Shown in pieces: positions 40,917-57,045 of a DNA stretch of 64,000 nucleotides. Below the pieces are notes generated by a model that worked only from the letters and a program-made list of their open reading frames with translations, made no database searches and was not told the origin of the DNA. Source of the stretch: Actinomadura sp. DC4 (GTDB taxonomy: Bacteria; Actinomycetota; Actinomycetes; Streptosporangiales; Streptosporangiaceae). Both the position numbers and the translations under genes were made by a program. Within the stretch, counting starts at the first letter, position 1. Every line of letters begins with the position of its first letter. The DNA lies in NCBI RefSeq assembly GCF_030406325.1, contig NZ_JAUEQY010000006.1:1-64000 (forward strand), written 5' to 3'.

Positions 40917-40947
40917 CCTCTGGATAGGCTGGGGCCGGGAGATTCAC

Positions 40948-41793
40948 GTGGATCTGGACCTGCGCAAGGTTCGCTACTTCGTCGCGGTGGCCGAAGAACT
41001 CCACTTCGGGCGGGCCGCCGAGCGGCTGCACATCGCCCAGCCTGTGCTGTCCCGGCAGATCCGGGCGCTGGAGGACGAGCTGAAGACGCGGCTCTTCTCA
41101 CGCGACCGGCGTGCCACCGCCCTGACCCCGGCCGGCGAGCAGCTCCTGGCCGACGCCCGGCCGCTGCTCGCGGCGGCCGAGGCCACGCGCCGCCGGCTGG
41201 CCCGCGCGGCCCGCGGCACCGAGACGTTCACGATCGGCTTCATGCCCGGACTGATCGTCACCGGCGCCGTACGCGAGCTGTCCCGCCGCCATCCCCGCCT
41301 CGGCGTCGAGGTGGTGCGGACCGGCTGGGACGACCAGATCGAGGTGATCCACGACGGCCGGGTGGACGTGGGCTACGTACGGCTGCCGGTCGACCGGCGC
41401 GGCCTGGAGGTACGGGACCTGTTCACCGAGCCCCGGGTGGCCGTGCTGCCCGCCGGCCATCCTCTGGCGGACAGGGACGCCCTGCGCGTCTCCGACCTCG
41501 CCGGCGAGCGCCTGCTGCAGGACCCGGCCGCCGTGCCGGAGTGGCCGGTCTCCGGCGTCGAGCCGCCGCCGTCGATCCGCACCGTCGAGGAGAAGCTGGA
41601 GCACGTCGCGGCCGGGCACGGGGTGGTGGTGCTCCCGCTGTCGACCGCGACGTTCTACTCTCGCCCCGGCATCGCGCGCGCCGAGGTCTCCGGCCTCGGC
41701 CCGAGCGCGGTCTGCCTCGCCTGGGACGCCGCGCGCCCGAGCCGGCTGATCGAGGAGTTCGCCGCCATCGCCGCGGAGCACGGCACCGTCTGA
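40948..41793 (+). CDS. LysR-family transcriptional regulator
   Basis: A 281-residue regulator. The N-terminal winged helix-turn-helix (LRKVRYFVAVAEELHFGRAAERLHIAQPVLSRQIRALE) is followed by a linker helix and a substrate-binding domain starting near residue 92. GTG 40948 has GGGAG upstream. It lies 31 bp after the SDR gene, so may regulate or be transcribed with it. Its stop is ten bases from the end of the convergent GGPP synthase gene, the last gene of the terpenoid-polyketide operon; control of that operon is possible but not shown. Confidence 0.9.
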   Translation: MDLDLRKVRYFVAVAEELHFGRAAERLHIAQPVLSRQIRALEDELKTRLFSRDRRATALTPAGEQLLADARPLLAAAEATRRRLARAARGTETFTIGFMPGLIVTGAVRELSRRHPRLGVEVVRTGWDDQIEVIHDGRVDVGYVRLPVDRRGLEVRDLFTEPRVAVLPAGHPLADRDALRVSDLAGERLLQDPAAVPEWPVSGVEPPPSIRTVEEKLEHVAAGHGVVVLPLSTATFYSRPGIARAEVSGLGPSAVCLAWDAARPSRLIEEFAAIAAEHGTV

Positions 41794-41803: not shown

Positions 41804-42877
41804 TCAGCTGTTCCGGTAGGCGACCTGGTGCGCCATCGCGCCGAGCTCCCGCTGCCAGCGCTCGTCGAGCGGGGCCGCGTCGATCGCCGCGCGGCCCTTC
41901 TCGACGAGCCGGTCGATGTGCGCCTCCACGTCCATGCGGACGCCCGTCTCGTCGAGGAGCCTGCGCACCTCCGCCGGGTCGCGCTCCGCTCCGAGCACGA
42001 ACTCGCGCGTCCGCCGGTCCCGGTCCATGGCGAGCCCCATCAGCAGCGTCATCTTGTGCTGCTCGATGTCCAGGCCGACGGGCTTGCCGGTGGCGTCGGA
42101 GTCCCCGAAGGCGTCCATGAGGTCGTCGCGGAGCTGGAACGCCTCGCCGAGCGCGTCCCCGTACGCCTCGAACGCCCCTTCCAGCTCCGGCCGGCCGGCG
42201 AGGGTCGCGCCGATGAGCAGCGGGCGGTGGATGGTGTACCGGCCGGACTTGACGACGGCGATCCAGCGGGACAGCGCCACGTCGGCGGAGAACTCCGCGG
42301 CGACCACCACGTCCATGAACTGGCCGATGATCAGCTCCGACCGCAGCTCCGCCCACGCCGCGCCGAGCGACGGCGAGGCCTCCGACATCATCTGGTCCGC
42401 GTAGATCAGCGCCAGGTCGCCGGCGAGGATCGCCACGCTCTCCCCGTACCGTCGTGGCTCGCCCTCCCACCCGTTCCTGGCGTGCTCGGCGGAGTGCCGG
42501 GCGTGCACGGTCGGCAGGCCGCGCCGCCGCGGCGACGCGTCGATCACGTCGTCGTGGATGAGCGCGCAGGTGTGCAGCATCTCCAGCGCCGAGGCGGCCG
42601 CGACGATGTCCTCGGACGCCGGGTCACCGCCCGCGGCGAGGTAGCCGGCGACGCAGAACGCCGGGCGGATGCGCTTGCCACCCGAGTCGATCAGCGCGGT
42701 GAGCGCGTCGATCGGGGCGGCCGCCCGCGCGTCCACCCTGGTCCTCAGCTCGCGTTCGGCGGCGAGGAAGTCGTGGAGGCGGGTCTCGACGCGCCCGAGC
42801 AGCCGCCCGCACAGCCGTGCGGGTGAGGCGGGGTCCGTCGAACCGTCGTGCGGCGCGGTGGTGATCTCAGTGGCCAC
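41804..42877 (-). CDS. Geranylgeranyl diphosphate synthase (polyprenyl synthetase)
   Basis: Makes the linear prenyl diphosphate for the operon's terpene synthase. The 357 residues carry both aspartate-rich motifs: DDVID at 109-113, within CALIHDDVIDASPRRRG, and DDLMD at 251-255, within FQLRDDLMDAFGD. It also has GGKRIRP at 66-72. Length and the residues before the first motif fit a GGPP (C20) synthase; a C15 or C25 product is not excluded. GTG 42877 has AAGGAG upstream. It is the last gene of the operon, 39 bp after the PKS gene. Confidence 0.9.
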   Translation of the reverse strand: MATEITTAPHDGSTDPASPARLCGRLLGRVETRLHDFLAAERELRTRVDARAAAPIDALTALIDSGGKRIRPAFCVAGYLAAGGDPASEDIVAAASALEMLHTCALIHDDVIDASPRRRGLPTVHARHSAEHARNGWEGEPRRYGESVAILAGDLALIYADQMMSEASPSLGAAWAELRSELIIGQFMDVVVAAEFSADVALSRWIAVVKSGRYTIHRPLLIGATLAGRPELEGAFEAYGDALGEAFQLRDDLMDAFGDSDATGKPVGLDIEQHKMTLLMGLAMDRDRRTREFVLGAERDPAEVRRLLDETGVRMDVEAHIDRLVEKGRAAIDAAPLDERWQRELGAMAHQVAYRNS

Positions 42878-42916
42878 GCTGTCTCCTTGTCGAGGGCTTC
42901 GGGGTTCGGCGTCGGT

Positions 42917-45900
42917 TCACGCGGATCGGGCCTCGGCGTCGGTGACGAGGGCGTGCAACTCCTCCGTGGTGATCGGGCCGAGCAGGGTCCGCATCGGGAC
43001 GGTGTGGCCGAAGGCGGACTTGATCTTGGTACGCAGCTCCACGGCGAGCAGCGAGTCCAGGCCGATGGCGCGCAGCCGGTCCGCGCCGCGGACGACCGCC
43101 ACGTCGGAGATCTTGAGGGTGTCCATGATGAGCGACTCCAGCGAGGTGGCCTGCCCGGCCGGCTCCGCGCGCGCCGTCTCGGCCGGGGGCGGGGAGACGT
43201 CGCCGACCGGGCGCAGCTCGTGGAGCAGGGCGTCGCGCCGCAGCACGTCGTACCGGCCGCCGAGCTCCGCCCAGTCGGCCGGGTAGCAGACCGGGAGGTC
43301 CCCGCGCGGCGCCGCCATGACGTTCCAGAGGAAAGCGTGGCCGTCGTCCGCGCCGATCTCCTGGACCCCGGCCGGCGTGAACGAGCGGGTCGGGTCGAGG
43401 TCGCGCAGCATGCCGGCCCCGGCCCAGAAGCCCCACCGCACGCCCCGCACGCGTACCCGGCCGCCCGCCGCGGCGAGGATGCCCTCCAGCGCGGCGTTGG
43501 CCGCGCCGTAGTGGGCGAACTGTGGTGAGGCCAGCACCGCCGAGGCCGAGGAGTAGGCGACGAGCATGTGCGCGCCGGCCCGTTCGGCGGCCTCGACCAG
43601 GTTCCGGGTGCCGTCGACCTTCGGTCCGAGCACCCGGGTCCAGTCGGCGCGCTCCAGCTCGGTGAGCGGACCGGCCGACAGCCGCCCGGCGAGGTGGAAG
43701 ACGTACACCTCGTCGGCCTTGACCCGGCTCAGCCGCTCGTAGAGCGTGTCGGCCGCCCGCGCCGCGCCGATGTCGCACCGCAGATGGCCGAACGGTCCCC
43801 CGGGGTCCTCGCGCGTCCCGACCAGGATGATCTCCTCGAATCCGCGGGCCGCCAGGTCGGCGGCGAGGGCGGAGCCGAGCCCGCCGTACCCGCCTGCGAT
43901 CAGCGCCGCCCGCCGCCGCGCGGTCCGTTCGGCGGGCCGGTCGTCCTCCCGCCGTACGGTGCCGGGAGCGGTGCGGGCCAGCGTCGTCTCGATCTCGGCC
44001 GGAGCGGACCGGTGGCCGAGCGACCGCGGCCAGGTGCTCGCCGGCGCCAGCTCGGGCAGGGTGAGCGCGGCCCCCTCCCCACCGATCAGCAGGTCGACGT
44101 CGGGCAGCTTGGACGCCGCGCCGAGCGCGACGCCGACGCGGCGCGGTGCTCCCGGGTACGCCGTGGTCGTCAGGGCGGCGATCGCGGCCCGCAGCAGCGC
44201 GGCGCGGTCGGAGTCGCCCGGCAGGAGGAGGTCGTCTCCCGCGCTCAACCGGGCCACCTCCACGATCCGCCGTGCGGTGTGCGCCGCCCACAGCACGTCC
44301 GGCATCCGCTGTGCCTGCGAATACCGCCCGGGCAGGGGCCGGACGCCGATGCCGCGCGGCCCCCGGTCCGGGTCGGACCAGACGAGTTCGAGGTCGCAGG
44401 CTCGCGCCGGGTCCAGCCGTACCTCGGCGGACCACTGGTCGAGGTGGCGTTCGCGGGGATGGGAGTACGGCGGGCGGGACCTCGGCGGCCGATCGGTCAG
44501 CCGCGCCGCCTGCAGCGCGCCGGCGCCGTCGCGGCGCACCCGGTGCTCGCCGCGTACGGAGAGCTCGCGGATCGACGGGAGCTCCCCGAGCGGCTCACCG
44601 GCGGCGACGGACACGACCGCCACGGCGAGGGAGGGGATCTCCGCCGGGAGCGCTCCGGCCAGGGAGAACAGGAACGCTGTGCCGGCCGCGGCGAACTCCC
44701 CGGCCGGCGGGTGCTCGACGTCGGCCACGACGATGCCGAGCGGGACCCCGGCCTCGGCGGCCGTACGGGCCAGCCGGGTGAGCACCAGTCCGAGTCCGGC
44801 GAGGTCGTCGGTCATCGTGCCCGCCGGGCGGTCCGGGAAGGTACGGGCGTCGACGAGCAGTTCGCGGCCGGCGCCGATCCCGGCCACCATCTCGGCGAGG
44901 TCGAGGTCGCCGAGGCCGAGTGGCGAGCCGAACAGGTCGAAGACGCGCTGCTCGCCCCCCGTGGCGGCGCCGGTGAGCGGCACCCAGCTCCGCCACAGCG
45001 CCGGGATCGCCGGCCGGTTCTCCAGCGGGCGGATGCGCACGCCCTCGCACCGGACGGCGAGACGGTCCTCGGCGTCGAGCACGGCGATGTCGAAGCCGGC
45101 CCCGGTGGCGGCCGGCGCGACGATCGACCGGACGCGCCCCCGCAGCCGGTGCCGGTGGAAGGTCATCCGGTCCACCCCCTCGAAGTAGAAGGGGCACCGG
45201 GGTTCGGCGCCGTGGACCATGCCGTAGTGCACCGCCGCCAGGCCGTGCAGCGCCGCGTCGAACAGGGCGGCGTCGATCTCACCGCCGATCGGGAGCGGCT
45301 CGCCGAGCTCGGCGGTGACGTACGCGTGGGAGGTCGACGCCCAGAGCTCGGTGATGGAGCGGAACGGCCCGTCCCAGAGGTTCCCGGCCGCGGCGAAGTC
45401 GCGGTAGAAACCCTCGACCGGCAGCGGGGACAGGTTCAGCGGCAGGTCGATGACCGCCTCCGGGGAGCCGGCCGGCGCGGCCGTCGCGGCCGTCGCGGTG
45501 CAGCACAGGACCGGGGCCGCCGCGGGGTCGGTGGTGAAGTGCACCTCCACGTGCGGCCCGGTACGCGTGACGGTGAGCGCGAGGTGATCGGTGTCGTCGT
45601 CGATGACGATCGCCTCGACGAACCGCACCGAGTCCAGCCGCAGCGCCTCACCGTCCCGCTGCAGGGCGCGCACGACGTGGCTGAGGGTCAGCGTGCCCGG
45701 GACCACGATCTCGCCGTTCACCTGGTGACCGGCCAGCACGCCCAGCTCCCGCCCGCTCAGCCGGAAGGTCACCGGCTCGGCCTCGGCCGCGGGCCTTGGC
45801 GACGCCGGCGCGCGCCCGGCGGGGCGGAGCGGCGGGACCGTACGCGGCGTGAGCCTCGGCGCCAGGGCGGTGGCGAGCTCGGAGGTCCACGGCGGCAGGC

Positions 45901-48328
45901 GGTCCGGGCGCAGCGGGACGTTCGCCGCGTGCAGCGCGCCGATCACGGCGCGGAGGAAGTCGTCGCCGTCGAGCGCGTCGGTGGCCAGGACCGTCCCGCT
46001 GAACTGGGCGCGCAGGTGGCCGGCCAGCACCGCCCGCGGCCCGATGTCGAGGATGACGCCGTGGCCGTCGCCCGCGAGGCGCGCCGCCACCGGCGGCAGC
46101 TCGACCGGGACGCGCAGGTTGGCCAGCCAGTGCCCCGGGGCCATGGCCGTCTGCGGCACGGCGGCGGCCGTGGTGGTGGAGGAGTAGAACGGCACGTCGG
46201 CGGTCCGGTCCCGGCCGATGGCCGTCGCGACGGGGGTGAAGGCCGGGATCGCCGGCTCCACGAACCGGCTGTGCGAGCCGAAGGTCACCTCCAGCGCGCG
46301 GGCCTCGTGCCCCTGGGCGACCGCCAGCTCGGTGACGGCGTCCACCGCGCCGGCGGGACAGGCCAGCACCACACAGCCCGGGCTGTTCACCACGGCGACG
46401 TCCGCCGACGGCGGGATCCAGGCGCGATCGCGGGCCACGTCCTCCCCGGTGATCACGATCATCCGGGTGTCGCCCGAGTGCGCCCGTACCGCCTCCGTGC
46501 GGGCCACCAGCAGGTCCGCGGCGGTGTCGGCGTCGAGGGCGCCCGCGACGCACGCGGCGGCGATGTCGCCGAAGCTGTGCCCGAGGACCGCGTCCGGGCG
46601 CACCCCGTAGTCCGTCAGGGTGAACGCGATGGCGAGCTGGGAGGCCCAGGTGGCGTACGGCTGCAGCGCGGCGGGGACGGCGTCGCCGCCGTCGAGCAGG
46701 TGCCGTTCGCCCTCGGGGAGCCGGTCGCGCACCGCGGCGTAGCCGGTGTCCAGGTGGGCGCGCAGGATCGGGTCGGCGACGGCGGCGGGGTCCAGCCAGT
46801 GCGCGCCGAAACCGCCGAAGGCGAAGACCAGCTTCGGCGTCTCGCGCCAGAGCCCGGCGATGAGGCCCGCGCCGGACGTGGTGACGGCCCCCTCGTCCGG
46901 GGTGCCCGCCCGCCGCCGTCCGGTGGAGTGGTTGAGCCGGTACGCCAGCGCCGCGTCGACGCGGTCCCGGTCGCCGGCCTCGCCGCCGGCGGGCGGCGCC
47001 ACTCCGGCCGAGGTGAGCCGCGGCAGCGACGGGCGCGGCCGGGGCACGTCGTCCGCCGGCCGCGGTGGCGCGGCGAGGACGGCGTGCGCGTTGGTCCCGG
47101 TGATGCCGAACGAGCTGACGCCGATCACCGCGTCGTCCGGCAGCGGCAGCACGCCGTCGACGTGCGCGAACAGGCCGCGTCCGGCGTCGGCCAGCTCGGC
47201 CCGCAGCTCGCCGTGCGCGAGCATCGGCGGCACCGCGGAGTTGCTCAGGCTGAGGGCGGCGACGACGAGGCCGGCCAGACCGGAGGTCGCCTCGCAGTGC
47301 CCGATCCGGGTCTTCACCGACCCGACCGGCAGCGGCCGCGCACGGCCGGCGAAGACCGTGGCGAGAGCGTCGAGCTCGACCTGGTCGCCGACCGTGGTGC
47401 CCGTGCCGTGCGCCTCGACGTAGCCGACCTCGGCCGGCGCGCGTCCCGCCAGCGCCAGCGCCCGGCGGACGACCTCGACCTGGCCGTCGGCCGACGGGGT
47501 GACCAGCGAGCCGCTGCGGCCGGCGTCATTGCCGGTGGCGACGGCCTCGATCACGGCGTAGACGCGGTCGCGTTCGGCCAGGGCGTCTTCCAGCGGCCGC
47601 AGCACCACCGCGACGAAACCGTCGCTGCGCACGAACCCGTCCGCCCGGGTGGTGCCGAACTTGCAGCGCCCGTCCGCGGCCAGCATGCCCGACCGGTGGA
47701 ACGACAGCGTCTCGTACGGGTCGAGGACCAGGTTGGTGGCGGCGGCGATGGCGACGGAGCAGTTGCCGGTGAGGATGTTGTCGATGGCCGTTCCGACGGC
47801 CGCCAGCCCCGACGAGCACGCGGTGTCGATGGTGATCGAGGGCCCGGACAGCCCGAACACGTGCGAGAGCCGGCCGGACAGGCCGCTGCCGGTGTTGCCG
47901 ACGTTGCTCATGGCGTCCAGGCCCGCGTCGTGGCGGGCGCTGAGCCAGTAGTCGCGGGTGATGCACCCGGTCACGACGCCGGTCGTGCGCCGCTGCAGGT
48001 AGTCGAGGGTGAGTCCGGCGTCGCCGATGGCCTCGAACGCCGTCTCCAGCAGGACGCGCTGCTGCGGGTCCATCACCTCGGCCTCGCGAGCCGAGATGCC
48101 GAACGCCGGATGGTCGAACTCCTCCCACCCGTCGACGAACCCGCCGGTGCGGCACACCTCGGCGAAACCAGGGTCGGTGACGTCGTGCTGGGCGAGGAAG
48201 CGCGCCCGGCTCTCCGGCGCGGACCCGATCTCGGTCTCCCGGCGGCCGAGCATGCGCCACACTCCGGCGGGTCCGCGCCCGCCCGGCAGCCGTGCGCCGA
48301 TCCCGACGACGGCGATCGGTCGATCCAT
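42917..48328 (-). CDS. Single-module type I polyketide synthase (KS-AT-DH-KR-ACP)
   Basis: 1803 residues. KS (1-420): DTACSSG with Cys171, His307 (VEAHGTGT) and His344. AT (500-800): GHSFG with Ser585 and His686 in FGSHS, but the normal GQGxQ entry is FGGFGAH, and the specificity motif is neither the malonyl HAFH nor the methylmalonyl YASH form. DH (855-1100): His868 in HQVNGEIVVPG and Asp1024. Residues ~1150-1450 look like a KR structural half plus a degenerate enoylreductase-like part. KR (1470-1650): GGYGGLG, Lys1570, Ser1593, Tyr1607, Asn1611. ACP: Ser1759 in GLDSL. No thioesterase or docking domain. With only one module I infer iterative use giving a reduced or unsaturated acyl chain, released by the nearby acyltransferase. 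Confidence 0.92.
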   Translation of the reverse strand: MDRPIAVVGIGARLPGGRGPAGVWRMLGRRETEIGSAPESRARFLAQHDVTDPGFAEVCRTGGFVDGWEEFDHPAFGISAREAEVMDPQQRVLLETAFEAIGDAGLTLDYLQRRTTGVVTGCITRDYWLSARHDAGLDAMSNVGNTGSGLSGRLSHVFGLSGPSITIDTACSSGLAAVGTAIDNILTGNCSVAIAAATNLVLDPYETLSFHRSGMLAADGRCKFGTTRADGFVRSDGFVAVVLRPLEDALAERDRVYAVIEAVATGNDAGRSGSLVTPSADGQVEVVRRALALAGRAPAEVGYVEAHGTGTTVGDQVELDALATVFAGRARPLPVGSVKTRIGHCEATSGLAGLVVAALSLSNSAVPPMLAHGELRAELADAGRGLFAHVDGVLPLPDDAVIGVSSFGITGTNAHAVLAAPPRPADDVPRPRPSLPRLTSAGVAPPAGGEAGDRDRVDAALAYRLNHSTGRRRAGTPDEGAVTTSGAGLIAGLWRETPKLVFAFGGFGAHWLDPAAVADPILRAHLDTGYAAVRDRLPEGERHLLDGGDAVPAALQPYATWASQLAIAFTLTDYGVRPDAVLGHSFGDIAAACVAGALDADTAADLLVARTEAVRAHSGDTRMIVITGEDVARDRAWIPPSADVAVVNSPGCVVLACPAGAVDAVTELAVAQGHEARALEVTFGSHSRFVEPAIPAFTPVATAIGRDRTADVPFYSSTTTAAAVPQTAMAPGHWLANLRVPVELPPVAARLAGDGHGVILDIGPRAVLAGHLRAQFSGTVLATDALDGDDFLRAVIGALHAANVPLRPDRLPPWTSELATALAPRLTPRTVPPLRPAGRAPASPRPAAEAEPVTFRLSGRELGVLAGHQVNGEIVVPGTLTLSHVVRALQRDGEALRLDSVRFVEAIVIDDDTDHLALTVTRTGPHVEVHFTTDPAAAPVLCCTATAATAAPAGSPEAVIDLPLNLSPLPVEGFYRDFAAAGNLWDGPFRSITELWASTSHAYVTAELGEPLPIGGEIDAALFDAALHGLAAVHYGMVHGAEPRCPFYFEGVDRMTFHRHRLRGRVRSIVAPAATGAGFDIAVLDAEDRLAVRCEGVRIRPLENRPAIPALWRSWVPLTGAATGGEQRVFDLFGSPLGLGDLDLAEMVAGIGAGRELLVDARTFPDRPAGTMTDDLAGLGLVLTRLARTAAEAGVPLGIVVADVEHPPAGEFAAAGTAFLFSLAGALPAEIPSLAVAVVSVAAGEPLGELPSIRELSVRGEHRVRRDGAGALQAARLTDRPPRSRPPYSHPRERHLDQWSAEVRLDPARACDLELVWSDPDRGPRGIGVRPLPGRYSQAQRMPDVLWAAHTARRIVEVARLSAGDDLLLPGDSDRAALLRAAIAALTTTAYPGAPRRVGVALGAASKLPDVDLLIGGEGAALTLPELAPASTWPRSLGHRSAPAEIETTLARTAPGTVRREDDRPAERTARRRAALIAGGYGGLGSALAADLAARGFEEIILVGTREDPGGPFGHLRCDIGAARAADTLYERLSRVKADEVYVFHLAGRLSAGPLTELERADWTRVLGPKVDGTRNLVEAAERAGAHMLVAYSSASAVLASPQFAHYGAANAALEGILAAAGGRVRVRGVRWGFWAGAGMLRDLDPTRSFTPAGVQEIGADDGHAFLWNVMAAPRGDLPVCYPADWAELGGRYDVLRRDALLHELRPVGDVSPPPAETARAEPAGQATSLESLIMDTLKISDVAVVRGADRLRAIGLDSLLAVELRTKIKSAFGHTVPMRTLLGPITTEELHALVTDAEARSA

Positions 48329-48335
48329 CAGCCAC

Positions 48336-48563
48336 TCACTCTCGTTCGTCCACGGAGGATTTCGCGGGCACGGCGCCGTCCACCTCGGACAGCGCCCGCC
48401 CCGGGCAGCAGCTGACGGCGTGGCGGAGCAACGCCGGGTCGGCCGTACGGGCGGCGCCGTCGTCGATCACGACGAGCCCGCTCTCGTCCTGGCCGAAGAT
48501 CTCCTCGGCGATGAGCACGCACATGCCCGCGCCGCAGCAGCGGGACCGGTCGGCACGGATCAC
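48336..48563 (-). CDS. P450-associated [3Fe-4S]-type ferredoxin
   Basis: A 75-residue ferredoxin, the likely electron donor for the operon's cytochromes P450. Cys9/Cys10, Cys15 and Cys52/Cys53 fit the C-x5-C...C-P pattern (CCGAGMC ... CCPGRAL) of single-cluster [3Fe-4S] ferredoxins, which lack the fourth ligand. It is tightly placed between a P450 (three bases upstream) and the PKS gene. No ferredoxin reductase gene is in the window. Confidence 0.9.
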   Translation of the reverse strand: MIRADRSRCCGAGMCVLIAEEIFGQDESGLVVIDDGAARTADPALLRHAVSCCPGRALSEVDGAVPAKSSVDERE

Positions 48564-48566
48564 GCG

Positions 48567-49772
48567 CTATCCCCCGGCGGACCGGCGCACGAGCAGCCGG
48601 GTCAGGCCGTGGACGATCGTGTCCGACTTCATCTCGTACGAGTCGAGGCTGAAGGTGGCGTACCGCTGCAGGAAGACCCGCAGCGCCACGGTGATCTCGA
48701 CGCGGGCGAGTTGCTGGGCCACGCACTGGTGGACGCCGAAGCCGAAGGCGAGATGCCCGCGGTCGCCGCGGCCGACGTCGAGCCGGTACGGGTCCGGGAA
48801 GCGCCTGGCGTCGAAGTTGCCGGCGGGCAGGGAGATGGTGATGGTCTCCCCCGGCTGGATCACGACGCCGGCCAGCTCGACCTTCTCCAGGGCGGCGCGC
48901 GAGATGCCGTACTGGATGATGGAGAAGAACCGCAGGAACTCCTCCATGGCGTCGGCGATCGCGTCGTCGGAGCCGGCGATCGCCCTGGCCGTCTCCGGGT
49001 TCTGCAGCAGGTGCAGATAGCTCAGCGCGATCATGTTCGTGGTGGTCTCGTGACCGGCGGTGTAGAGCTGGAAGGCCACGCTCGTCATCTCGGCGTTACC
49101 GAGCCGCCCGTCGTCGACCATGTTGGTGACGAAACCGGGAGCGTGGTCCCGCTGGCGCCGCGACACGACCGCGCCCAGCTCGTCGAAGATGGTGCCGAAC
49201 ATCTGCCGTACCTCATCGGCGGTGGACTCCAGCGACAGCATCCGCTCCAGGCAGTGGGTGAGCGTGTGGCTCACCTCCTCCTCGACCCCGAGGAGTTCGG
49301 TGATCACCAGGGCCGGCAGCGGTGAGGCGACGTCCGCGACCAGGTCGGCCGTCTCGCCGGCGCAGGCGTCGAACAGCGTCTCCGCCCGCTCGGTGACCCT
49401 GGCCTGCAGTTTGCGCATCTCGCCGAGGCGCAGCGCGGCGGCGACGATGCGCCGGTAGTGGGTGTGCTCGGGCGGGTCCATGCCGACGAACATGCCCGGC
49501 CGTTCCTCCGGCGGCTGGCCGTCGCCGATGGCCTCGTGGATCGCCGAGTGCCGCAGGTCGGGCCGGGAGCTGAACTCCGGCCTCATCAGGACCGTACGGC
49601 ACAGCTCGAAGTCGGTGACGAGCCAGCCGACGTGCCCGTCGGCGTACCTCAGCCGGTGGATGGGCCCGGCTCCGGCCATGTCCATGAGCCCGTCCGGAAG
49701 CTCGAACACCGAGGCCCGTCCGCGCGGGATGGTGGGCCCGGACTCGGCCGGGCTGGTCGATAGTTCGGTCAC
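48567..49772 (-). CDS. Cytochrome P450 (first next to ferredoxin)
   Basis: A 401-residue soluble class I P450. The I-helix is YTAGHETTTN (oxygen-activating Thr), the K-helix is EEFLRF (intact ExxR), and the heme loop is FGFGVHQCVAQQLARVE with the thiolate Cys. GTG 49772 overlaps the stop of the acyltransferase gene (GTGA) and has GGAGAG upstream. The much longer open frame to 50936 is a shadow of the acyltransferase. Probably hydroxylates the terpene or acyl part of the product. Confidence 0.93.
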   Translation of the reverse strand: MTELSTSPAESGPTIPRGRASVFELPDGLMDMAGAGPIHRLRYADGHVGWLVTDFELCRTVLMRPEFSSRPDLRHSAIHEAIGDGQPPEERPGMFVGMDPPEHTHYRRIVAAALRLGEMRKLQARVTERAETLFDACAGETADLVADVASPLPALVITELLGVEEEVSHTLTHCLERMLSLESTADEVRQMFGTIFDELGAVVSRRQRDHAPGFVTNMVDDGRLGNAEMTSVAFQLYTAGHETTTNMIALSYLHLLQNPETARAIAGSDDAIADAMEEFLRFFSIIQYGISRAALEKVELAGVVIQPGETITISLPAGNFDARRFPDPYRLDVGRGDRGHLAFGFGVHQCVAQQLARVEITVALRVFLQRYATFSLDSYEMKSDTIVHGLTRLLVRRSAGG

Positions 49773-50926
49773 TGCCGCTCTCCGATCTGGGTGAGGGTGT
49801 GCGCCACCGCGTCGATGACGGCACGCACGTCGCCCGGTGCGAGGTCGGCCGGATCCGCGATGAGCGTGATGTCGACGGCGCCCGTCGCCGGGCTCTCGTT
49901 CACCGCGATCATCGGCAACGCCGGGATCGAGGACTGCGGCGCGATGAGAAGCCTCCCCGCGGTGGCGAGCCGCGGGAAACGGCGCGTCGCGCCGCGTGCG
50001 TTCGAGACGACGAGGTGCGCGGGAAGGTTGTTCTCGGGCAGGTACCGCCGGCCGTCGAGGAACGGGGCGGTGGGGGCCACGGCCTCGATCTGGTCCATCA
50101 GCTCGGCGTCGTACTCCCGTGCCGCGGCGAGCACCGCGTCGACGGTGCGCGCCGGGCGCGGCATCCGCATCAGCGCGCCGTGGCTGCAGTTGCCGATGGC
50201 CCGCAGGGGGAACTCCCCCGCTCGCAGGGGATCGGCGAACACCCGGCAGTCCACCGGCACGCCCACACGGCGGCCTTCGCCGTCGCCCGTGAACGGCGCC
50301 GCGGCCACGGCGATCACCGCGGTCAGCGACACGGACTCGGCGGCGCACACGTCGTCGATCGCGCGCACCCGCGGCGCCTCCAGGTGCAGAGTCGCCGGAC
50401 GCGCGGGCTTCAGCGGCGGCGCCGGGGCCTCGCCGAAGAACAGGCGCGTCTCCCGTAAGGCGCCGGCGGGCTGCGGGACGCCGAACACCCTCTCGGCCGC
50501 GATCGGCCAGTCCCGCGCCGTCTCCGGCGGTATCGACCCGGCGCCGGGTCCGGCGCCGAGCTCTCCGAGCAGGTGGTCGAGGATCGAGAGGATGCCCGTC
50601 ACGTCGCACAGTGCGTGGTGCAGGCGGCCCGAGATCTCGGTGACGCCCGGCCGCGCGGTGCCGACGGTGAACGCCGACAACGCCGTGTCCACGCGCACGT
50701 CCCCCGCGTCCGTCTCGACCGCGGGCGCGGTCCCGGTCTCCTCGAACGCGAAACCGTCCGCCGTACGGGCGATGCGGCCGCCCAGCCGGGGAAAGGAGGA
50801 GTACATCCGCCGAAGGCCGCCGGCCGCCGCGGCCGGTGTCACGGAGGCGGGCACCTCGGCCGCGAACCCGGTCTGCCAGTCGAGGAACGCGTGGTAGGCC
50901 TCGCTCGGCTCCAGCAGGCGCGTCAC
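49769..50926 (-). CDS. PapA/condensation-superfamily acyltransferase
   Basis: A 385-residue protein of the chloramphenicol-acetyltransferase/condensation superfamily, resembling the polyketide-associated (PapA/WES) acyltransferases. The active-site motif is at residues 103-111, HHALCDVTG: the two His and the Asp of HHxxxDG are present, but Gly comes two residues late. Relatives move acyl chains from a carrier protein to an alcohol. Beside a thioesterase-less PKS and a terpene pathway, it is the best candidate for ester formation and PKS release (inference). Its GTG overlaps the upstream P450 stop (GTGA), and its own stop overlaps the next P450. Confidence 0.75.
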   Translation of the reverse strand: MTRLLEPSEAYHAFLDWQTGFAAEVPASVTPAAAAGGLRRMYSSFPRLGGRIARTADGFAFEETGTAPAVETDAGDVRVDTALSAFTVGTARPGVTEISGRLHHALCDVTGILSILDHLLGELGAGPGAGSIPPETARDWPIAAERVFGVPQPAGALRETRLFFGEAPAPPLKPARPATLHLEAPRVRAIDDVCAAESVSLTAVIAVAAAPFTGDGEGRRVGVPVDCRVFADPLRAGEFPLRAIGNCSHGALMRMPRPARTVDAVLAAAREYDAELMDQIEAVAPTAPFLDGRRYLPENNLPAHLVVSNARGATRRFPRLATAGRLLIAPQSSIPALPMIAVNESPATGAVDITLIADPADLAPGDVRAVIDAVAHTLTQIGERQ

Positions 50927-52362
50927 GACGGCTCACCCGCCGTCTCGGGCAGCCGCCGTACGGTGGCGCCGACGGCTCCCGGGATGATCGTGGCCAGCGG
51001 GCGTCCCTCCGGGTGCTGCGCCGTGGCCGACTCCAGGTGCACCGCCGCCAGCATCTCCGCGACGACGATCCACATCATCTGCCAGGCGTACTGTTCGCCC
51101 ACGCAGTGCCGGGGCCCGAGGCCGAACGGCGTGTAGGACCCCTTGGCGGCCGGGCAGGCGCCGGCGCCGAAGGTCTCGGGCTCGAAGGCGGGGCCGGCCG
51201 GGAAGTGGGTCCGGTCCCGGTGCATGGCCCACGGGCTGTACATGACCTCGGTTCCCGCGGGCAGCGTGACCCCGCGCAGCTCGGTGTCGCGGGCGGTGCG
51301 CCGGGAGATGACGAGGATCGGCTGGCGGCAGCGCATGAGCTCCGAGAGCACCTTCTTGAGCAGCGGCGCCTCCGTCAGGTCCGGCTCGTACTCCACTCCA
51401 CGCCGCCGCGCGCCGGAGAGTTCGTCGCGCAGGGCGTTCTGCAGGGCCGGGTCGGCGGCCAGCTCGACCGTCAGCCAGGACAGCGCCGTGGCCGCGGTCT
51501 CGGCCCCGGCCATGGTCACCGCGACGATCTGGTCGGCCATCTCGTCGGCGGTCAGCGGCTCGCCGTCGGCGCCGCGCACCGTCCGCATGACCGAGATGAG
51601 GTCCAGCCGGTCCGGTTCCGCCGCGCCGAGTGAGTTCATGGCCGCGGTGATGGCCGCGCGCAGCCGGTCCATCGCGGTGTCGTGCAGGCGGTTCCGCCTG
51701 GTGGGGATGCGCAGGTACCAGCTGGGAACCACGGTGCGGAACATGATCGCTTCGAGGGTGAGCCCGAGCCACTCGTGGATCCGGTCGAACTCCCCGCGGT
51801 CGATGTCGGTGCCGAACATCGTCGCGGCCAGGAGCTTGAACGTCATCCGGTGCAGCGCCGCGTCGATGTCCAGGGTGCGGTCCCACTGCGCCAGCTCGTC
51901 GCGGACGACCGTCGTCATGAGGCCGCGCAGCCCGACGACGTGGTCGCGCTTGAAGAACCGGTCCAGGTAGTCGCGCTGCCTGCGGTGCTCGGCCCCGTTC
52001 GCGAGGACGACGCCGTTGCCCGCGAGCCGGCGCACCCGGTCGTAGAACAGGCCCTTCTCGAAGTCGCCGCGCCGGTCGACCAGCATGTCGTTGATCAGCA
52101 GCGGATCGGCCAGGAAGACGAAGTCCTTGCCCAGCGCGGTGAACACCTGGACGTCCGCCGCGCGGTTGAGCGCGGTCACCTTGGCCAGCGGATCCCTGGC
52201 GAGCCGTAACAGCTCCCGGATCAGCCCGAGGCGCCGGTGGACGCGGACGGAGTACCCGGCCGCGCGCTCACGCCAGTCCTTCGGCGACGAGGTCGGCGTA
52301 GCACTTGTCGGTGAAGAGGGTGCCGCCCTCCTGGAGCTGGACGACTTGGGGATACCGGCCAT
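50923..52362 (-). CDS. Cytochrome P450 (downstream of terpene synthase)
   Basis: A 479-residue P450: I-helix MAGAETAATALSW, K-helix ELMRCRQP (intact ExxR), and heme loop FGLGPRHCVGEQYAW, the canonical FGxGxRxCxG. The only in-frame ATG is at 52362, with GGAGAAAGG ten bases upstream. That start makes the gene overlap the end of the terpene synthase gene by 95 bp; no alternative ATG/GTG/TTG lies between it and the conserved part. Codon 52 is a TTA (52207-52209), rare in this GC range. Confidence 0.92.
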   Translation of the reverse strand: MAGIPKSSSSRRAAPSSPTSATPTSSPKDWRERAAGYSVRVHRRLGLIRELLRLARDPLAKVTALNRAADVQVFTALGKDFVFLADPLLINDMLVDRRGDFEKGLFYDRVRRLAGNGVVLANGAEHRRQRDYLDRFFKRDHVVGLRGLMTTVVRDELAQWDRTLDIDAALHRMTFKLLAATMFGTDIDRGEFDRIHEWLGLTLEAIMFRTVVPSWYLRIPTRRNRLHDTAMDRLRAAITAAMNSLGAAEPDRLDLISVMRTVRGADGEPLTADEMADQIVAVTMAGAETAATALSWLTVELAADPALQNALRDELSGARRRGVEYEPDLTEAPLLKKVLSELMRCRQPILVISRRTARDTELRGVTLPAGTEVMYSPWAMHRDRTHFPAGPAFEPETFGAGACPAAKGSYTPFGLGPRHCVGEQYAWQMMWIVVAEMLAAVHLESATAQHPEGRPLATIIPGAVGATVRRLPETAGEPS

Positions 52363-53362
52363 CCCACTGATGCCTTTCTCCGTTGTAGCGCGTGGTTCGG
52401 TAGGACCAGTCGACGTTGCCGCACATCATGTGCCACAGCAGCCCGCCGTAGACGCTCACCGCGTGGTCGCCGCCGAGCGCCGAGACCGTCTCGCGCAGGG
52501 CCCGGCGGAAGGCGATCTCGTTGCGCTGCACTTCGAGCCCGACGCGGTCGAAGGCCTCCTGGACCGACAGGTCCTCGCTGAGGATGAGCGTGGCGACGGC
52601 GTTCACGGTGTCGTCGGCGTCCGCCTCCGCGCGGAAGGAGAACAGGTCGTTCGCGAGCGCGATGTGGTCGAGCGCGTGGCCGACCAGGCGTTCGCGGTAC
52701 GCCGAGCCGTCCACCGCCTCGGCGGCGAAGGGGGGTACGAGCGCCTCGCCCAGGGCGAAGTACATGCCCATGCCGACGCTGTTGCGCCGCATCCGCAGGT
52801 AGGTGTCGAAGTCGTAGACGGCGTCGGAGTTGCGGTAGTAGACCTCCTCGACGCAGCCGACGAAGAACCGCAGGACCTCGTCGTGGAAACTGCGCCACAC
52901 CTCGTCCGAGAGGTACGTCCGCAGCGTGGACAGGCACTCGCGCAGCGGCTCGAACCAGATGGCCAGGTCCTCACTCGCCGAGGCGCCGACGGTGCCGCCC
53001 TCGAACAGCGCGTCGATGGCCGCCTTCATCTCCGCCGCGTACGCCGGATCGCTGCCGAGCCGGTCCTTGTCGACCAGGGCGTTGTCGAGGATGGAGAGGT
53101 ACTCGGTGTACCTCGCCGCGGTGACCAGGAACTCGTACGGCGCGGTGGGCAGGACCAGGATGGTCCACAGCGACGCGCGCTCGGCGAGCAGCGTGGTCAG
53201 CGCCGGCGGGGACAGCAGGTCGGCGAGCCCTTGACGGCACCACTTCTGGCTGTCCGACACCACCTGGCCGGCGTCGGAGCGTTCCAGCGCGGGCGCGCAG
53301 TGCTGGAAGCTCGGCAGCAGCACGTGGGTGCCGGCGAGAGTACGGGTGAAAGTCTCGGCCAT
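52268..53362 (-). CDS. Class I terpene synthase
   Basis: A 364-residue all-helical cyclase. The metal-binding NSE triad is intact as N238DLFSFRAE246 (Asn238, Ser242, Glu246). A pyrophosphate-sensor Arg lies in YLRMRRNS about 46 residues earlier, and a C-terminal Arg325-Tyr326 pair is present. The first Asp-rich motif is unusual: D93NALVD98 instead of DDxx(D/E). The neighbouring GGPP synthase suggests a diterpene product; cyclisation pattern cannot be predicted by eye. It starts 37 bp after a P450 gene and overlaps the next P450. Confidence 0.87.
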   Translation of the reverse strand: MAETFTRTLAGTHVLLPSFQHCAPALERSDAGQVVSDSQKWCRQGLADLLSPPALTTLLAERASLWTILVLPTAPYEFLVTAARYTEYLSILDNALVDKDRLGSDPAYAAEMKAAIDALFEGGTVGASASEDLAIWFEPLRECLSTLRTYLSDEVWRSFHDEVLRFFVGCVEEVYYRNSDAVYDFDTYLRMRRNSVGMGMYFALGEALVPPFAAEAVDGSAYRERLVGHALDHIALANDLFSFRAEADADDTVNAVATLILSEDLSVQEAFDRVGLEVQRNEIAFRRALRETVSALGGDHAVSVYGGLLWHMMCGNVDWSYRTTRYNGERHQWDGRYPQVVQLQEGGTLFTDKCYADLVAEGLA

Positions 53363-53399
53363 GGTTATGCGCTCTCGTCCGCAGGTACGGGGAACGGGT

Positions 53400-54746
53400 T
53401 CATCGCGGCACCACGGCTCTCAGCCGGATCGGCAGCGCGCCCGGCACCAGCGCGCCCATCGCGGCGGGCGGCACCTGCTGGCCCGGCTGCAGCGCCATCT
53501 GGTAGCGCTGGAGGATGTTGAGGACGGCGATGGAGATCTCGATCCACGCGAAGTGCTCGCCGATGCAGTTGCGGACGCCGGCACCGAAGGGCAGGAACGC
53601 CGTGCGCGGGTACTTCTTGGGATCGTCGAGCCAGCGGCGCGGTTTGAACTCGTCGGGGTCCTCGTACACGCTCTCGTCCCGCTGGATCGCGTACACGGAG
53701 TAGAAGACCTGGGTGCCCGGCGGCAGTTCGTGACCGCCGAGGCTCGTGGTCCCCAGGGTGCGCCGGCCCAGCGCCCACACCGGCGGGTACAGCCGCAACG
53801 ACTCCTTGATCACCGCTTGCAGCAGCGGCAGCCCGAAGATGGCCTGCACGGACCCGTTCGCGTCCATGTCGAACCCGGTGACCTCGGCGCGCAGCTCCTC
53901 CTGGATCTCGGGGTGGCGGGCCAGCAGGTAGCAGCACCAGGCCATGGCGCTGGGCGTGGTCTCGGACCCGGCGGTGAGGAAGGTCAGGAACTCGTTCAGG
54001 ATCTGCGCCCGGTCGTTGTCCTTGCGGGTGACCTCGTCGTCGGTGTCGGTCAGCACGTTCATGAGGTCGGCCCGCGCGCCGCTCGCGCGGTCCGCGCGGA
54101 GCCGGTCGTCGACCAGCCGGTCGCCGAGCGCGCGCAGGTCGGCGATGGCCGAGTGGAACGCGCGGTTCTCCGAGGTCGGGATGATGTCGAACAGGCGCGG
54201 CGGCAGGGCTCCGCGCTTCTCGATCCCCGAGATGACGATCGGCATCTTCTCGCGGACGAGCTCGACGTCCGCGTCGCTCATCTCCGTCGAGAAGAGAGTG
54301 TCGATGACGACCCGCGTGGCCAGCCGGTAGAACTCGGGATAGAGCTCCACGACGTCGCGGCCCGCCCACGACTCGACCATGGCCGTGCTGTAGGTGTGCA
54401 TGGCGTCGATGTAGTCGTTGACCGACGGCTTGTTGAACATCGGCTGCATCAGGCGGCGCTGCCGGAAATGCAGATCGCCCTCCGCGAGGAGCACGCCGTT
54501 TCCGAGCATCGCGCGCGCTCGTTCGTACTGGATGCCCTTGTCGTACTTCTTGGCGTCGGGCACCAGGATTTGGTAGAGCAGTTCGTGATTGGAGATCAGG
54601 CAGGCGTCCTTCCACCCGATCTTTATGCGCGACAGCGGCGCGGTCCGTGCCGCGCTGCTGAAGAACTTCAGCGGGTCCTGCCAGATGTTGAGGATGTGTC
54701 CGATGAGCGGCTTGGCGTGCGGTACCAACGGCGGTTTGGCGACCAT
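53400..54746 (-). CDS. Cytochrome P450 (upstream of terpene synthase)
   Basis: A 448-residue P450 of the longer CYP4/CYP102-like style: PHAKPLIGHILNIWQDPLKFF at the N-terminus, I-helix FLTAGSETTPSAM, K-helix KESLRLYPPVWALGRR (intact ExxR), and heme loop FLPFGAGVRNCIGEHFAW. ATG 54746 has GGGGAA eight bases upstream; the open frame to 55472 is a shadow. It lies 14 bp after the P450 gene above it. Confidence 0.93.
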   Translation of the reverse strand: MVAKPPLVPHAKPLIGHILNIWQDPLKFFSSAARTAPLSRIKIGWKDACLISNHELLYQILVPDAKKYDKGIQYERARAMLGNGVLLAEGDLHFRQRRLMQPMFNKPSVNDYIDAMHTYSTAMVESWAGRDVVELYPEFYRLATRVVIDTLFSTEMSDADVELVREKMPIVISGIEKRGALPPRLFDIIPTSENRAFHSAIADLRALGDRLVDDRLRADRASGARADLMNVLTDTDDEVTRKDNDRAQILNEFLTFLTAGSETTPSAMAWCCYLLARHPEIQEELRAEVTGFDMDANGSVQAIFGLPLLQAVIKESLRLYPPVWALGRRTLGTTSLGGHELPPGTQVFYSVYAIQRDESVYEDPDEFKPRRWLDDPKKYPRTAFLPFGAGVRNCIGEHFAWIEISIAVLNILQRYQMALQPGQQVPPAAMGALVPGALPIRLRAVVPR

Positions 54747-54760
54747 GACTGGAATTCCCC

Positions 54761-55957
54761 TCACCAGCGGATGGGCAGCGAGCTGAAAGCGCGGAACACA
54801 TATCCGCCGGGCAGCCGCTCGGGTGGCGCCGCCTCGTCGAAACGCGGCGCGGACGGGACCGCCTCCAGCAGCGCGGCCAGCGCCAGGCGCGCCTCCACAC
54901 GGCCGAGATGGGACCCAACGCAGCGGTGGATGCCGTGCCCGAAGCCGATGTGCTTGTGGCCGCCCGCCATCGGGTCCGCCGTCGTGCCGTTCGGCCCGGC
55001 GAGAAGCGGATAGGCCCCGATCGCCAGGTGCAGCCGCGCGCCGGCCGGGACGGTGACGCCGCGGATCACGGTCTCCTCCTCGACCGAGCGGGGCGTGCTC
55101 TGCACGGAAGGGTCGGCGGCGAGCGTCTCCTCGACGAAGTCGGGAATGGCGCCGGGATCGCCGGCGAGCCGGTCCCAGCGGCCGGTCTCGATGAGCCGGG
55201 CCACCGCGTTGCCGATGAGGCCGGAGGTGGTCTCGTGCCCGGCGGCGATCATGACCCGGATCGCGACGATGATGTCGTCCACCTCGTGCACGGCGCCCGG
55301 TGTGCCGATGGCGTCGGCCATCTCCAGGATGAGGCTGGGCCGCCGCTCCGCACGGATCTTCGCGATCAGGTCCCGCACGTAGTCGTCGTAGGCGCGGACG
55401 GAGCCGGCCGCCTGTGTCTGCTGCTCCGGCGGCAGCGGGGCCACCTGCAGCGCGAGCCATAGATCGTTCCACTGCTTGACCTGAGCCCGGTCGTCCTCGG
55501 GGATGCCGATCATGTCGGAGATGATTTTGATCGGCAGCGGGTAGGCGAGCTCCCCCATGACGTCGAAGGCGTTCCGGCCGGTCAGGTCACCGCACAGGCC
55601 GGTGGCGACGTCGCGGATCTTGGGCGCCAGCCGGTCGACCGCGGCCGGGGTGAACGGCCGGATGAAGGTCTTGCGGAACGCCGAATGCGCGGGAGGCGGC
55701 TCGTTGAACAGTGCCGTCCGGTAGAAGAGGGTGTCGTCGAGGATCGCCCGCGCCTCGTCGCAGACCGGAACATGGCCTTCCAGATTATGGACGCTCGTGT
55801 ACTTGTCGTGATCCTCGAGTATCTCGAAGATCAGGGCGGGGTCGGTGACGACGTACTCCGCGGGGCCGACCGGGGTGAGGGGCGCCTCGGCGTTCAAGGC
55901 CCGGTAAGTGGAGTACGGGTCGGTCATGAAGTCGTGGACGGTACCGGTTAACGACAC
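54761..55957 (-). CDS. Cytochrome P450 lacking the ExxR arginine (first gene of operon)
   Basis: A 398-residue P450 with a normal I-helix (IAAGHETTSGL) and heme loop (FGHGIHRCVGSHLGRVE). The K-helix reads DFVEETLAADPSVQ where relatives have EELLRYDPPVQ, so the ExxR Arg is Ala. The DNA at this point (GAG-GAG-ACG-CTC-GCC) is unambiguous. A few streptomycete families (CYP156/CYP157) are known to depart from ExxR. GTG 55957 has GGAGAGG upstream; its third codon is TTA (55949-55951). Confidence 0.92.
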   Translation of the reverse strand: MSLTGTVHDFMTDPYSTYRALNAEAPLTPVGPAEYVVTDPALIFEILEDHDKYTSVHNLEGHVPVCDEARAILDDTLFYRTALFNEPPPAHSAFRKTFIRPFTPAAVDRLAPKIRDVATGLCGDLTGRNAFDVMGELAYPLPIKIISDMIGIPEDDRAQVKQWNDLWLALQVAPLPPEQQTQAAGSVRAYDDYVRDLIAKIRAERRPSLILEMADAIGTPGAVHEVDDIIVAIRVMIAAGHETTSGLIGNAVARLIETGRWDRLAGDPGAIPDFVEETLAADPSVQSTPRSVEEETVIRGVTVPAGARLHLAIGAYPLLAGPNGTTADPMAGGHKHIGFGHGIHRCVGSHLGRVEARLALAALLEAVPSAPRFDEAAPPERLPGGYVFRAFSSLPIRW

Positions 55958-56211
55958 ATGCCTCTCCAATATCACGCAGCATGAAAAAACAACGGCGATG
56001 ACGACGATGGAAGCGCCCGTTGCAGGGGGCTGCATTCATACGCCTAATGGCGCTACGCAAAGCAGCGTGAGCGATATTCGGCTGGTTGCTTTGTACTCAG
56101 GTGAAGTTACCAACCGGCCGACTGTGCATCAAGAGTTCTTTTTGCATCGTCGGCGAAGGCGCGTAGCAGCTTATTGCCAATGGCATTTCACGGCGGCCGT
56201 CCGTGTGCGGT
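55958..56211 (-). promoter_or_regulatory. Leader/promoter region of the terpenoid-polyketide operon
   Basis: 254 bp before the first P450 gene, visibly richer in A and T than its surroundings (for example 55981-55990 and 56130-56143). It must hold the operon promoter unless transcription comes through from the hydrolase gene. I could not settle on -35/-10 boxes. Confidence 0.45.
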
Positions 56212-56937
56212 TCAGGCGAGCTTCAGCAGGAGGCCGGCGAGCTCGGCCGGCATGGTGATCATGCAGTCGTGGCCGGTCGGCAGCTCCCACACCTGCGCCG
56301 GGGTGCCGTTGGGCTGGATCGCGGGGACGGGCCGCCGGGTGAAGCCGTCCGGCTTGCCGACGGTGCAGTGGATGTGCGTGCGCGGGATCGCGTCCGCGGC
56401 CGGGTCGTCCAGGCGGACCGGCTGCTGGAGGCAGCGCACCGGCTGGTCCGACAGCATCGTGCGCAACCAGGCGACGTCCTCCGGGTCGGTGACCCCGAAC
56501 AGGCCCATGGGCGGCGGCATCTCGGGGAGCGGCGGAACGCGCCAGCCGCTGTCGGACTTCAGGGTGAGGTCGATCAGGGCCCGGGTCACCGGCATGACGT
56601 CGGCCGCGGTCTCACCGTCTTCCGGGACCATCGCGTCGAGGTAGACCAGGTGCGCGATCCGGTCCGGGACCCGGTCGGCCACGGACGCGATGACCAGCCC
56701 GGCGTAGCTGTGTCCCACCAGCACCACCTCGGTGAGGTCCTCCTCGGTGATCAGCCCGACGATGTCCTCGACGTGCGTGTCCAGCCCCACGTCGGGGCCG
56801 AGCAGGTGCGCCCTGTCGCCGTAGCCGGTCAGCGACGGCGTGAGCACCCGATGCCCGGCCGAGGTCAGCGACGGGACCATCCGCTCCCAGCACCGCCCGC
56901 TGTGCCAGGCACCGTGGACCAGTAGATATGTGGACAT
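56212..56937 (-). CDS. Alpha/beta-fold hydrolase
   Basis: A 241-residue hydrolase of the esterase/haloperoxidase-like group. The oxyanion segment LVHGAWHSGRCW is at the N-terminus, the nucleophile elbow GHSYAG is around residue 96, and the catalytic His is in PTGHDCMI near the end. Substrate is unknown. It is transcribed away from the TetR gene, sharing a 108-bp control region with two matching operators, so its expression is probably repressed by that TetR. A link to the terpenoid operon 254 bp downstream is possible only by position. Confidence 0.88.
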   Translation of the reverse strand: MSTYLLVHGAWHSGRCWERMVPSLTSAGHRVLTPSLTGYGDRAHLLGPDVGLDTHVEDIVGLITEEDLTEVVLVGHSYAGLVIASVADRVPDRIAHLVYLDAMVPEDGETAADVMPVTRALIDLTLKSDSGWRVPPLPEMPPPMGLFGVTDPEDVAWLRTMLSDQPVRCLQQPVRLDDPAADAIPRTHIHCTVGKPDGFTRRPVPAIQPNGTPAQVWELPTGHDCMITMPAELAGLLLKLA

Positions 56938-56972
56938 GACTCTCCCCCACTCGATCTGGCATGATAGAGAAA

Positions 56973-57019
56973 CGGGACAGCGTCCCGGTTGCTCGATCGA
57001 CGATATGGGACGTTGTCCC
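56973..57019. promoter_or_regulatory. Two TetR operator palindromes
   Basis: CGGGAC-AGC-GTCCCG (56973-56987) and GGGAC-GTT-GTCCC (57007-57019) are near-identical palindromes with three-base spacers, centres 33 bp apart (about three helical turns). They lie between the divergent hydrolase and TetR genes. Confidence 0.8.
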
Positions 57020-57045
57020 GTTTAGCAACGGCCGGTGGGAAGGAC

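Follow-up and report, generated by a model that had tools for sequence, protein, structure and literature searches.

A nine-gene actinobacterial operon predicted to esterify a P450-oxidised diterpene with a polyketide acyl chain

Introduction

In Mycobacterium, the polyketide synthase (PKS) MAS and the acyltransferase PapA5 carry out the assembly of dimycocerosate esters. Fungi place polyketide-type chains on terpenoid alcohols, as in fumagillin. A second fungal example is harzianum A, a 4-octatrienedioyl trichothecene (PMC9592644), and actinobacteria make diterpenoids with acyl or aryl groups, such as the phenalinolactones, tiancilactones and brasilicardin (PMC10301674); these and the other sources cited below by PMC number are represented here by excerpts of their text. 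The present analysis concerns a 64,000-nucleotide stretch of Actinomadura sp. DC4 (contig NZ_JAUEQY010000006.1, positions 1 to 64,000 of the forward strand; hereafter the window), which contains a row of nine genes for a terpene synthase, a polyprenyl synthase, four cytochromes P450 (P450s), a ferredoxin, a PKS and an acyltransferase. An initial annotation of this sequence had proposed a terpenoid esterified with a polyketide chain, and this overall logic is supported in part. We consider it probable that the operon directs formation of a diterpene alcohol oxidised by P450s and that an acyl group, itself probably methyl-branched and unsaturated, is passed directly from the carrier protein of the PKS to this alcohol to form an ester. 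No published bacterial cluster with this make-up was recognised in the open-licence literature, subscription papers not being covered.

Results

Organisation of the operon

Nine open reading frames (ORFs) on the minus strand fill positions 55957-41804, a row of about 14 kb in which the largest gap is 39 bp. In transcription order they are:

54761..55957, minus strand: P450a, first gene of the operon (Pfam p450, 46 bits)
53400..54746, minus strand: P450b, pentalenene-oxygenase-like (Pfam p450, 255 bits)
52268..53362, minus strand: type I terpene synthase P0003 (Pfam Terpene_syn_C_2, 86 bits)
50923..52362, minus strand: P450c (Pfam p450, 172 bits)
49769..50926, minus strand: PapA5-like acyltransferase P0002, 385 amino acids (aa) (HHxxxD at 103-108, HHALCD; predicted fold)
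48567..49772, minus strand: P450d (Pfam p450, 78 bits)
48336..48563, minus strand: small ferredoxin, 75 aa (Pfam Fer4_15, 33 bits, above cut-off; Fer4_13)
42917..48328, minus strand: stand-alone type I PKS P0001, KS-AT-DH-KR-ACP (Pfam KS, AT, PS-DH, KR, PP-binding)
41804..42877, minus strand: polyprenyl diphosphate synthase P0004, last gene of the operon (Pfam polyprenyl_synt, 164 bits)

The intergenic gaps in this order are 14, 37, -95, -4, -4, 3, 7 and 39 bp, and the row is likely to be one transcription unit; a promoter and terminator scan gave no signal above shuffled expectation. Eight of the nine genes have Pfam matches, and the acyltransferase was identified instead by motif and fold. 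Every gene named in the initial annotation was found in its place, in the tight single-strand arrangement described there. Third-position GC is 0.90-0.97 in six of the ORFs (the set without P450b, P450d and the ferredoxin). The operon itself contains no transporter gene and no regulator gene, as had been noted, and the LysR and TetR genes described below are neighbours only.

The acyltransferase and the PKS

The acyltransferase P0002 has an HHxxxD motif in which H103, H104 and D108 are invariant in 22 of 22 aligned acyltransferase rows, and its predicted structure has the two-subdomain, condensation/CAT-like fold. PapA5 was at rank 1-2 in Foldseek, at an identity of only ~15-18%, and stood above TRI3 in both structural rankings (Foldseek and VIA), with AzeD tying with PapA5 in one of them; the two lists leave other folds possible for P0002. 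The PapA/condensation-like assignment made at the outset is thus upheld by the match to PapA5 and the conserved motif. Because no sequence-family match was obtained for P0002 (none in Pfam at E <=0.01, none in NCBIfam and no relevant PDB sequence match), the protein is described as working like PapA5 and not as being PapA5, while some of its relatives carry the source name 'Acyltransferase PapA5'. Fold, motif and gene linkage together suggest that P0002 would offload the chain made by the PKS.

For P0001, Pfam found no thioesterase, as previously claimed, and no enoyl reductase (ER; zinc-ADH type) or loading module, and a PDB sequence search of the segment between DH and KR for a hidden domain gave nine matches, all of them KR/SDR proteins over the KR part. 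The catalytic residues KS C171, AT S585, DH H868/D1024, KR Y1607 and ACP S1759 are invariant in 17 of 17 family rows. P0001 thus resembles a MAS-like iterative PKS in being a single module without thioesterase and with complete active sites, and departs from that type in having no ER domain. Among the best 120 of 4022 matches, a family of 17 members, 47-82% identical to P0001, is separated from 103 other proteins of at least 2010 aa, whose identity, covering part of the query, is 29-42%. No characterised member of the family was encountered in this analysis. Proteins of Mycobacteroides chelonae and M. abscessus (P0054, P0055) are members at 47%, and M. chelonae also has a homologue of the cyclase (P0019, 61%).

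Linkage in Amycolatopsis, Planomonospora, Nonomuraea, Lentzea, Micromonospora and Mycobacteroides was deduced from contigs of equal size and not from reading the loci. On this measure, and among the matches listed, 11 of the 17 PKSs (window included) have a family acyltransferase on an equal-sized contig, and nine have both an acyltransferase and a cyclase, the cyclase being AriE-like and 40-41% identical in two of the nine (Amycolatopsis taiwanensis, one 30.3-kb contig). Counted from the acyltransferase side, 11/22 have a listed PKS. The six PKSs lacking an acyltransferase match comprise three on contigs of 13-23 kb and the three most divergent members. It could be argued that the acyltransferase attaches a small acyl group derived from CoA, in the manner of TRI3-like acetylation, and that the product of the PKS is separate or is attached in another way. 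We regard this as unlikely, given that the PKS has no release domain, that PKS and acyltransferase, as judged from equal-sized contigs in 11/17 cases, keep together even when the cyclase differs, and that PapA5 outranks TRI3 in both structural comparisons.

The AT motif GHSFGD...FGSHS occurs in all 17 members of the PKS family, and FGSHS in 0/103 of the other proteins among the best 120 of 4022 matches. FGSHS aligns with the YASH stretch of the DEBS AT domains, which are of the methylmalonyl type, and the AT domain of P0001 aligns best to these domains. YASHS-like motifs go with methylmalonyl and HAFHS with malonyl; as FGSHS is YASHS-like by this rule, methylmalonyl would be the more likely extender. 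The chain had initially been proposed to be reduced or polyunsaturated; an unsaturated acyl group is retained here, and the AT motif suggests that it is methyl-branched. The domain order of P0001, its length of ~1800 aa and the absence of an ER would also fit the bacterial aromatic iterative PKSs, in which case the enzyme would be of the 6-methylsalicylate type and the side chain a benzoate-like ester. This is very unlikely, since the best 120 of 4022 matches include no aromatic-type enzyme of 1750-1850 aa and the motif is FGSHS and not of the HAFHS type, whereas aromatic enzymes take malonyl units.

The terpene cyclase and its substrate

The active site of P0003 comprises DNALVD (93-98), E61, an NSE motif formed by N238/D239/S242/E246 (NDxxSxxxE) and R325-Y326, which do not vary among the 21 relatives aligned, apart from an exchange of Leu96 with Met. 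The atypical type I subclass of VenA and Bnd4 is defined by D(S/T/N)XX(X)D/E, a Glu or Gln ~30 residues upstream, NSE and RY, and the corresponding Bnd4 residues are DNAMVD 94-99, Glu62 and Arg322 (PMC10325987). By this motif definition P0003 is a member of the subclass, a signature which speaks for the diterpene class initially assigned to it and suggests a diterpene cyclase acting on a C20 substrate.

The nearest chain in a PDB sequence search with P0003 was 9lpb (241 bits), followed by VenA (94 bits), and a Foldseek search with the AlphaFold model of P0003 (pLDDT, the predicted local distance difference test score, 86.5) again returned 9lpb as top match, there named AriE. The 9lpb residues were placed by hand at 94, 95, 62 and 322, equal to the Bnd4 numbering, by subtracting a 12-residue offset taken from comparison with P0025. 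The ari cyclase (AriT) of Amycolatopsis arida forms benditerpe-2,6,15-triene, which has a cis-eunicellane skeleton (PMC10055836), and AriE and AriT appear to be one gene. In a tree with 12/32 inner branches well supported, in which Bnd4's own sequence was not included, P0003 lay outside the AriE-like clade (identity to 9lpb 38-42%, with 39.7% measured alongside the tree), in its own 15-member clade set apart from 19 AriE-like rows with a split of 100/100; a eunicellane skeleton is therefore not claimed. No characterised member of the 15-member clade was encountered in this analysis. Elsewhere in the same genome, an open frame of 755 aa (G000:C30:23181-24788) matches terpene synthases twice, in the layout of a geosmin synthase, and is a candidate for one.

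P0004 has two DDxxD motifs, the first preceded by small residues (CALIHDDVID) of the kind that permit products of C20 or longer. Each of the 16 NCBIfam models listed for it scored under its own cut-off, the best being a Mycobacterium synthase of farnesyl diphosphate (FPP) or geranyl diphosphate (234 vs 600 bits). Of the initial label 'geranylgeranyl diphosphate (GGPP) synthase', the polyprenyl synthase family is confirmed, and the specificity is a prediction from sequence, by which P0004 would supply GGPP. That the terpene part is instead a sesquiterpene is the least probable alternative, favoured by this closest model, far under its cut-off as it is, and by the FPP reported as an alternative substrate of VenA, but opposed by the VenA/Bnd4-type residues of the cyclase, by the ranking of AriE and VenA above every sesquiterpene synthase listed in both the PDB sequence search and Foldseek, and by the small residues of P0004.

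Recurrence in Nocardia and the oxidative genes

When one genome from each of 84,980 species was scanned, close relatives of the cyclase outside the window's genome were found at two loci, both in Nocardia. The locus of Nocardia sp. SYP-A9097 (L004) has 8/9 genes in the same order at 64-85% identity (P450a 80%, P450b 85%, cyclase 81%, P450c 83%, acyltransferase 64%, P450d 83%, ferredoxin 76% and PKS 67-73%), and a partial N. farcinica contig (L005) has the same order from P450b through the start of the PKS. As the gene order is conserved in a second genus, the arrangement is not due to chance. The L004 prenyl synthase is non-orthologous: it is 31% identical, and its gene follows P450b and precedes that of the cyclase. 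In the SYP-A9097 cluster, the 3' end of the PKS gene is overlapped by a gene for IspH (LytB) (L011:15989-16984); in the window's genome, two copies of IspH lie away from the operon, on contigs C56 and C10. The Nocardia IspH and the local prenyl synthase link this PKS end of the cluster with the provision of isoprenoids.

The cyclase and P450c ORFs, measured from mechanical ORF starts, overlap by exactly 95 nt at all three loci (window 52268-52362, L004 9243-9337 and L005 3374-3468), and the earliest standard start of the window P450c frame is an ATG within the cyclase gene. The start of P450a is uncertain, as its open frame extends to an ATG at 56035. P450b scored 289 bits against the NCBIfam pentalenene oxygenase model, under the cut-off of 800, and the small ferredoxin is presumably the P450 partner.

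Distribution and genomic setting

The L004 cluster is flanked on both sides by DDE transposase genes, and upstream of the Nocardia cluster there is an ORF that matches integrase weakly (20 bits, under the Pfam cut-off of 27), which suggests that the Nocardia cluster is a mobile island:

L004:1849-3447, L004:3679-4149 and L011:14056-15078: flanking transposase and weak-integrase ORFs in Nocardia

In three of seven congeners (G006, G007 and G011), nadA and PspAB lie next to each other, with no cluster between them; the nadA side of G006 also has a LysR gene, ~55% identical. As these flanking genes adjoin without the cluster, the block at 41.8-57.6 kb, including a hydrolase and a TetR gene, is extra DNA relative to the three congeners, by gain here or loss there. 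The other four are uninformative, their 1.5-kb PspAB flank showing neither nadA nor cluster genes, and the cyclase was absent from all seven congeners at E 1e-20. A plasmid origin was rejected, as 72,556 plasmid records gave no acyltransferase match and one 29% cyclase match; a search of these records with the M. chelonae PKS was negative at E 1e-100.

In genome samples that may overlap with one another, the acyltransferase profile found only the window's own genome among 394 class-level and 396 phylum-level genomes, and 2/150 genomes of the genus Nocardia, both from the two Nocardia loci above. The M. chelonae cyclase as query found 1/401 genomes in the family of L004, the L004 genome itself, and the window cyclase found 2/345 at order level, one match being itself and the other 26% identical. 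At L006 (genome G029, same family), a cyclase homologue of 26% identity adjoins a P450-like sequence 35% identical to P450b, and L006 is taken as a more distant terpene cluster.

The genes adjoining the operon are:

40591..41793, plus strand: LysR-type regulator, start uncertain (Pfam HTH_1, LysR_substrate); convergent neighbour outside the operon
56212..56937, minus strand: alpha/beta hydrolase (Pfam), upstream of the operon
56989..57609, plus strand: TetR regulator (Pfam), divergent from the hydrolase, 1.0 kb upstream of the operon

Between the ends of the convergent LysR gene and of the operon lie 10 bp. The hydrolase is probably outside the pathway, because the hydrolase-TetR pair occurs without the cluster in congener G006. 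Two exact copies of the palindrome GGGACNNNGTCCC, at 56974 and 57007, are the only ones in the window. Both lie in the TetR-hydrolase intergenic region (56970-57023) and are probable TetR operators; a search of the window found none before the operon. TetR was accordingly rejected as regulator of the cluster, the exact palindromes being confined to its own intergenic region and the pair occurring without the cluster in G006, and its role is probably local.

Discussion

In the proposed pathway, the prenyl synthase would make GGPP, which the terpene synthase would ionise and cyclise via DNALVD, Glu61, Arg325-Tyr326 and the NSE residues, and the P450s, fed by the small ferredoxin, would install at least one hydroxyl. 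The PKS would condense methylmalonyl (more likely) or malonyl units, with ketoreduction and dehydration following, and would leave the double bond unreduced since no ER was found; substrate and cycle number are predictions, one cycle giving a tiglyl- or crotonyl-type acyl group and two cycles a dienoyl group. As the PKS has no thioesterase, release would fall to the HHxxxD acyltransferase, predicted from fold, motif and linkage to move the chain from the carrier protein to the terpene hydroxyl.

Several observations weigh against this pathway. P450a keeps the heme motif FGHGIHRC and AGHETT but lacks the ExxR Arg (VEETLAADP), which is near-universal in P450s; the Nocardia orthologue (L004 ORF 4498-5787) has the same atypical K-helix, so the change is not random decay. 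In the PKS, the AT active-site motif GHSFGD differs from the GHSQGE that accompanies YASHS in relatives, and the LDD string, which a rule for KR domains links with a neighbouring DH, is absent from the KR part in 16/17 family members, unusual beside a DH; both features call for caution. Of the 15 cyclases in the window's clade, only seven are matched by a PKS-family protein listed for an equal-sized contig. The remaining eight include the cyclases of Micromonospora sp. R77 (7.07-Mb contig) and Lentzea alba and one on a 181-kb contig for which the acyltransferase is listed but a PKS is not; the cyclase may thus not depend on this PKS. For the three most divergent PKSs (47-48%), of which one is named as M. 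chelonae and one as M. abscessus, no acyltransferase partner is listed. Across nine loci, PKS and acyltransferase identities correlate with r 0.71 (p 0.0002), but acyltransferase and cyclase identities also do (r 0.63, p 0.0006; PKS and cyclase r 0.33, p 0.09), so the coupling of PKS and acyltransferase is not uniquely strong.

A wider hypothesis, for and against which the balance seems to us about even, is that PKS and acyltransferase form an acylation cassette which travels between actinobacteria and is combined with different diterpene cyclases. The sole task of the stand-alone PKS module would then be to make a methyl-branched unsaturated acyl group, and the PapA5-like enzyme would transfer this group directly from the carrier protein to the hydroxyl that the P450s make on the cyclised diterpene; this would be the first such bacterial terpene pathway. 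If the proposal is true, bacteria join two normally separate logics, mycobacterial-style PKS/PapA ester assembly on the one hand and diterpene cyclisation with P450 oxidation on the other. With donor PKS, transferase and oxidising enzymes in one 14-kb row, direct transfer from ACP to terpene is testable, and the transferase would offer a new handle for attaching chosen acyl groups to terpenoids.

Among known systems, tiancilactones were reportedly discovered through type II diterpene synthases. The tiancilactones, phenalinolactones and brasilicardin differ from the present proposal in their side groups (chloroanthranilate, 3-hydroxybenzoate), and the excerpt describes no reducing type I PKS dedicated to donating them (PMC10301674). 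The window cyclase is of the same atypical-motif subclass as those of the bnd and ari eunicellane clusters (Bnd4; AriT/AriE), but lies in a separate clade from that of ari, for which the excerpt mentions no PKS (PMC10055836). The net cluster likewise has an acyltransferase gene, netA, beside cyclase and oxidases, and introduction of netA gave no new product (PMC10055836). VenA shares the Asp-rich motif, of the DSFVSD type, with a compensating Gln/Glu upstream (PMC10325987), but is 21-27% identical to the window cyclase in structural alignments, and the ven product is the tetracyclic venezuelaene. The eut cluster (euthailols) contains a truncated domain of the 4-hydroxy-3-methylbut-2-enyl diphosphate reductase IspH, comparable to the IspH gene in the Nocardia cluster; the eut cyclase gives the AlbS trans-eunicellane product, and, in contrast to the ester proposed here, the main text on eut contains neither the word 'acyl' nor 'ester' (PMC11574762).

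Harzianum A and fumagillin share with the present proposal a polyketide-type chain on a terpenoid alcohol, but are fungal, have sesquiterpene cores and depend on different PKSs. The parallel with fumagillin drawn initially holds as a loose analogy, and the mycobacterial MAS/PapA5 pair is closer by fold. By the sequence and domain comparisons applied, neither window protein belongs to the MAS or PapA5 family, and P0001 is no more similar to MAS than to modular PKSs; unlike the mycobacterial pair, the window PKS has no ER, and the chain would be accepted by a cyclised terpenoid in place of phthiocerol. What the two systems have in common is a stand-alone type I PKS without thioesterase, encoded in the same operon as a condensation-fold HHxxxD acyltransferase, and MAS/PapA5 would on this comparison be the closest working analogue of the window pair.

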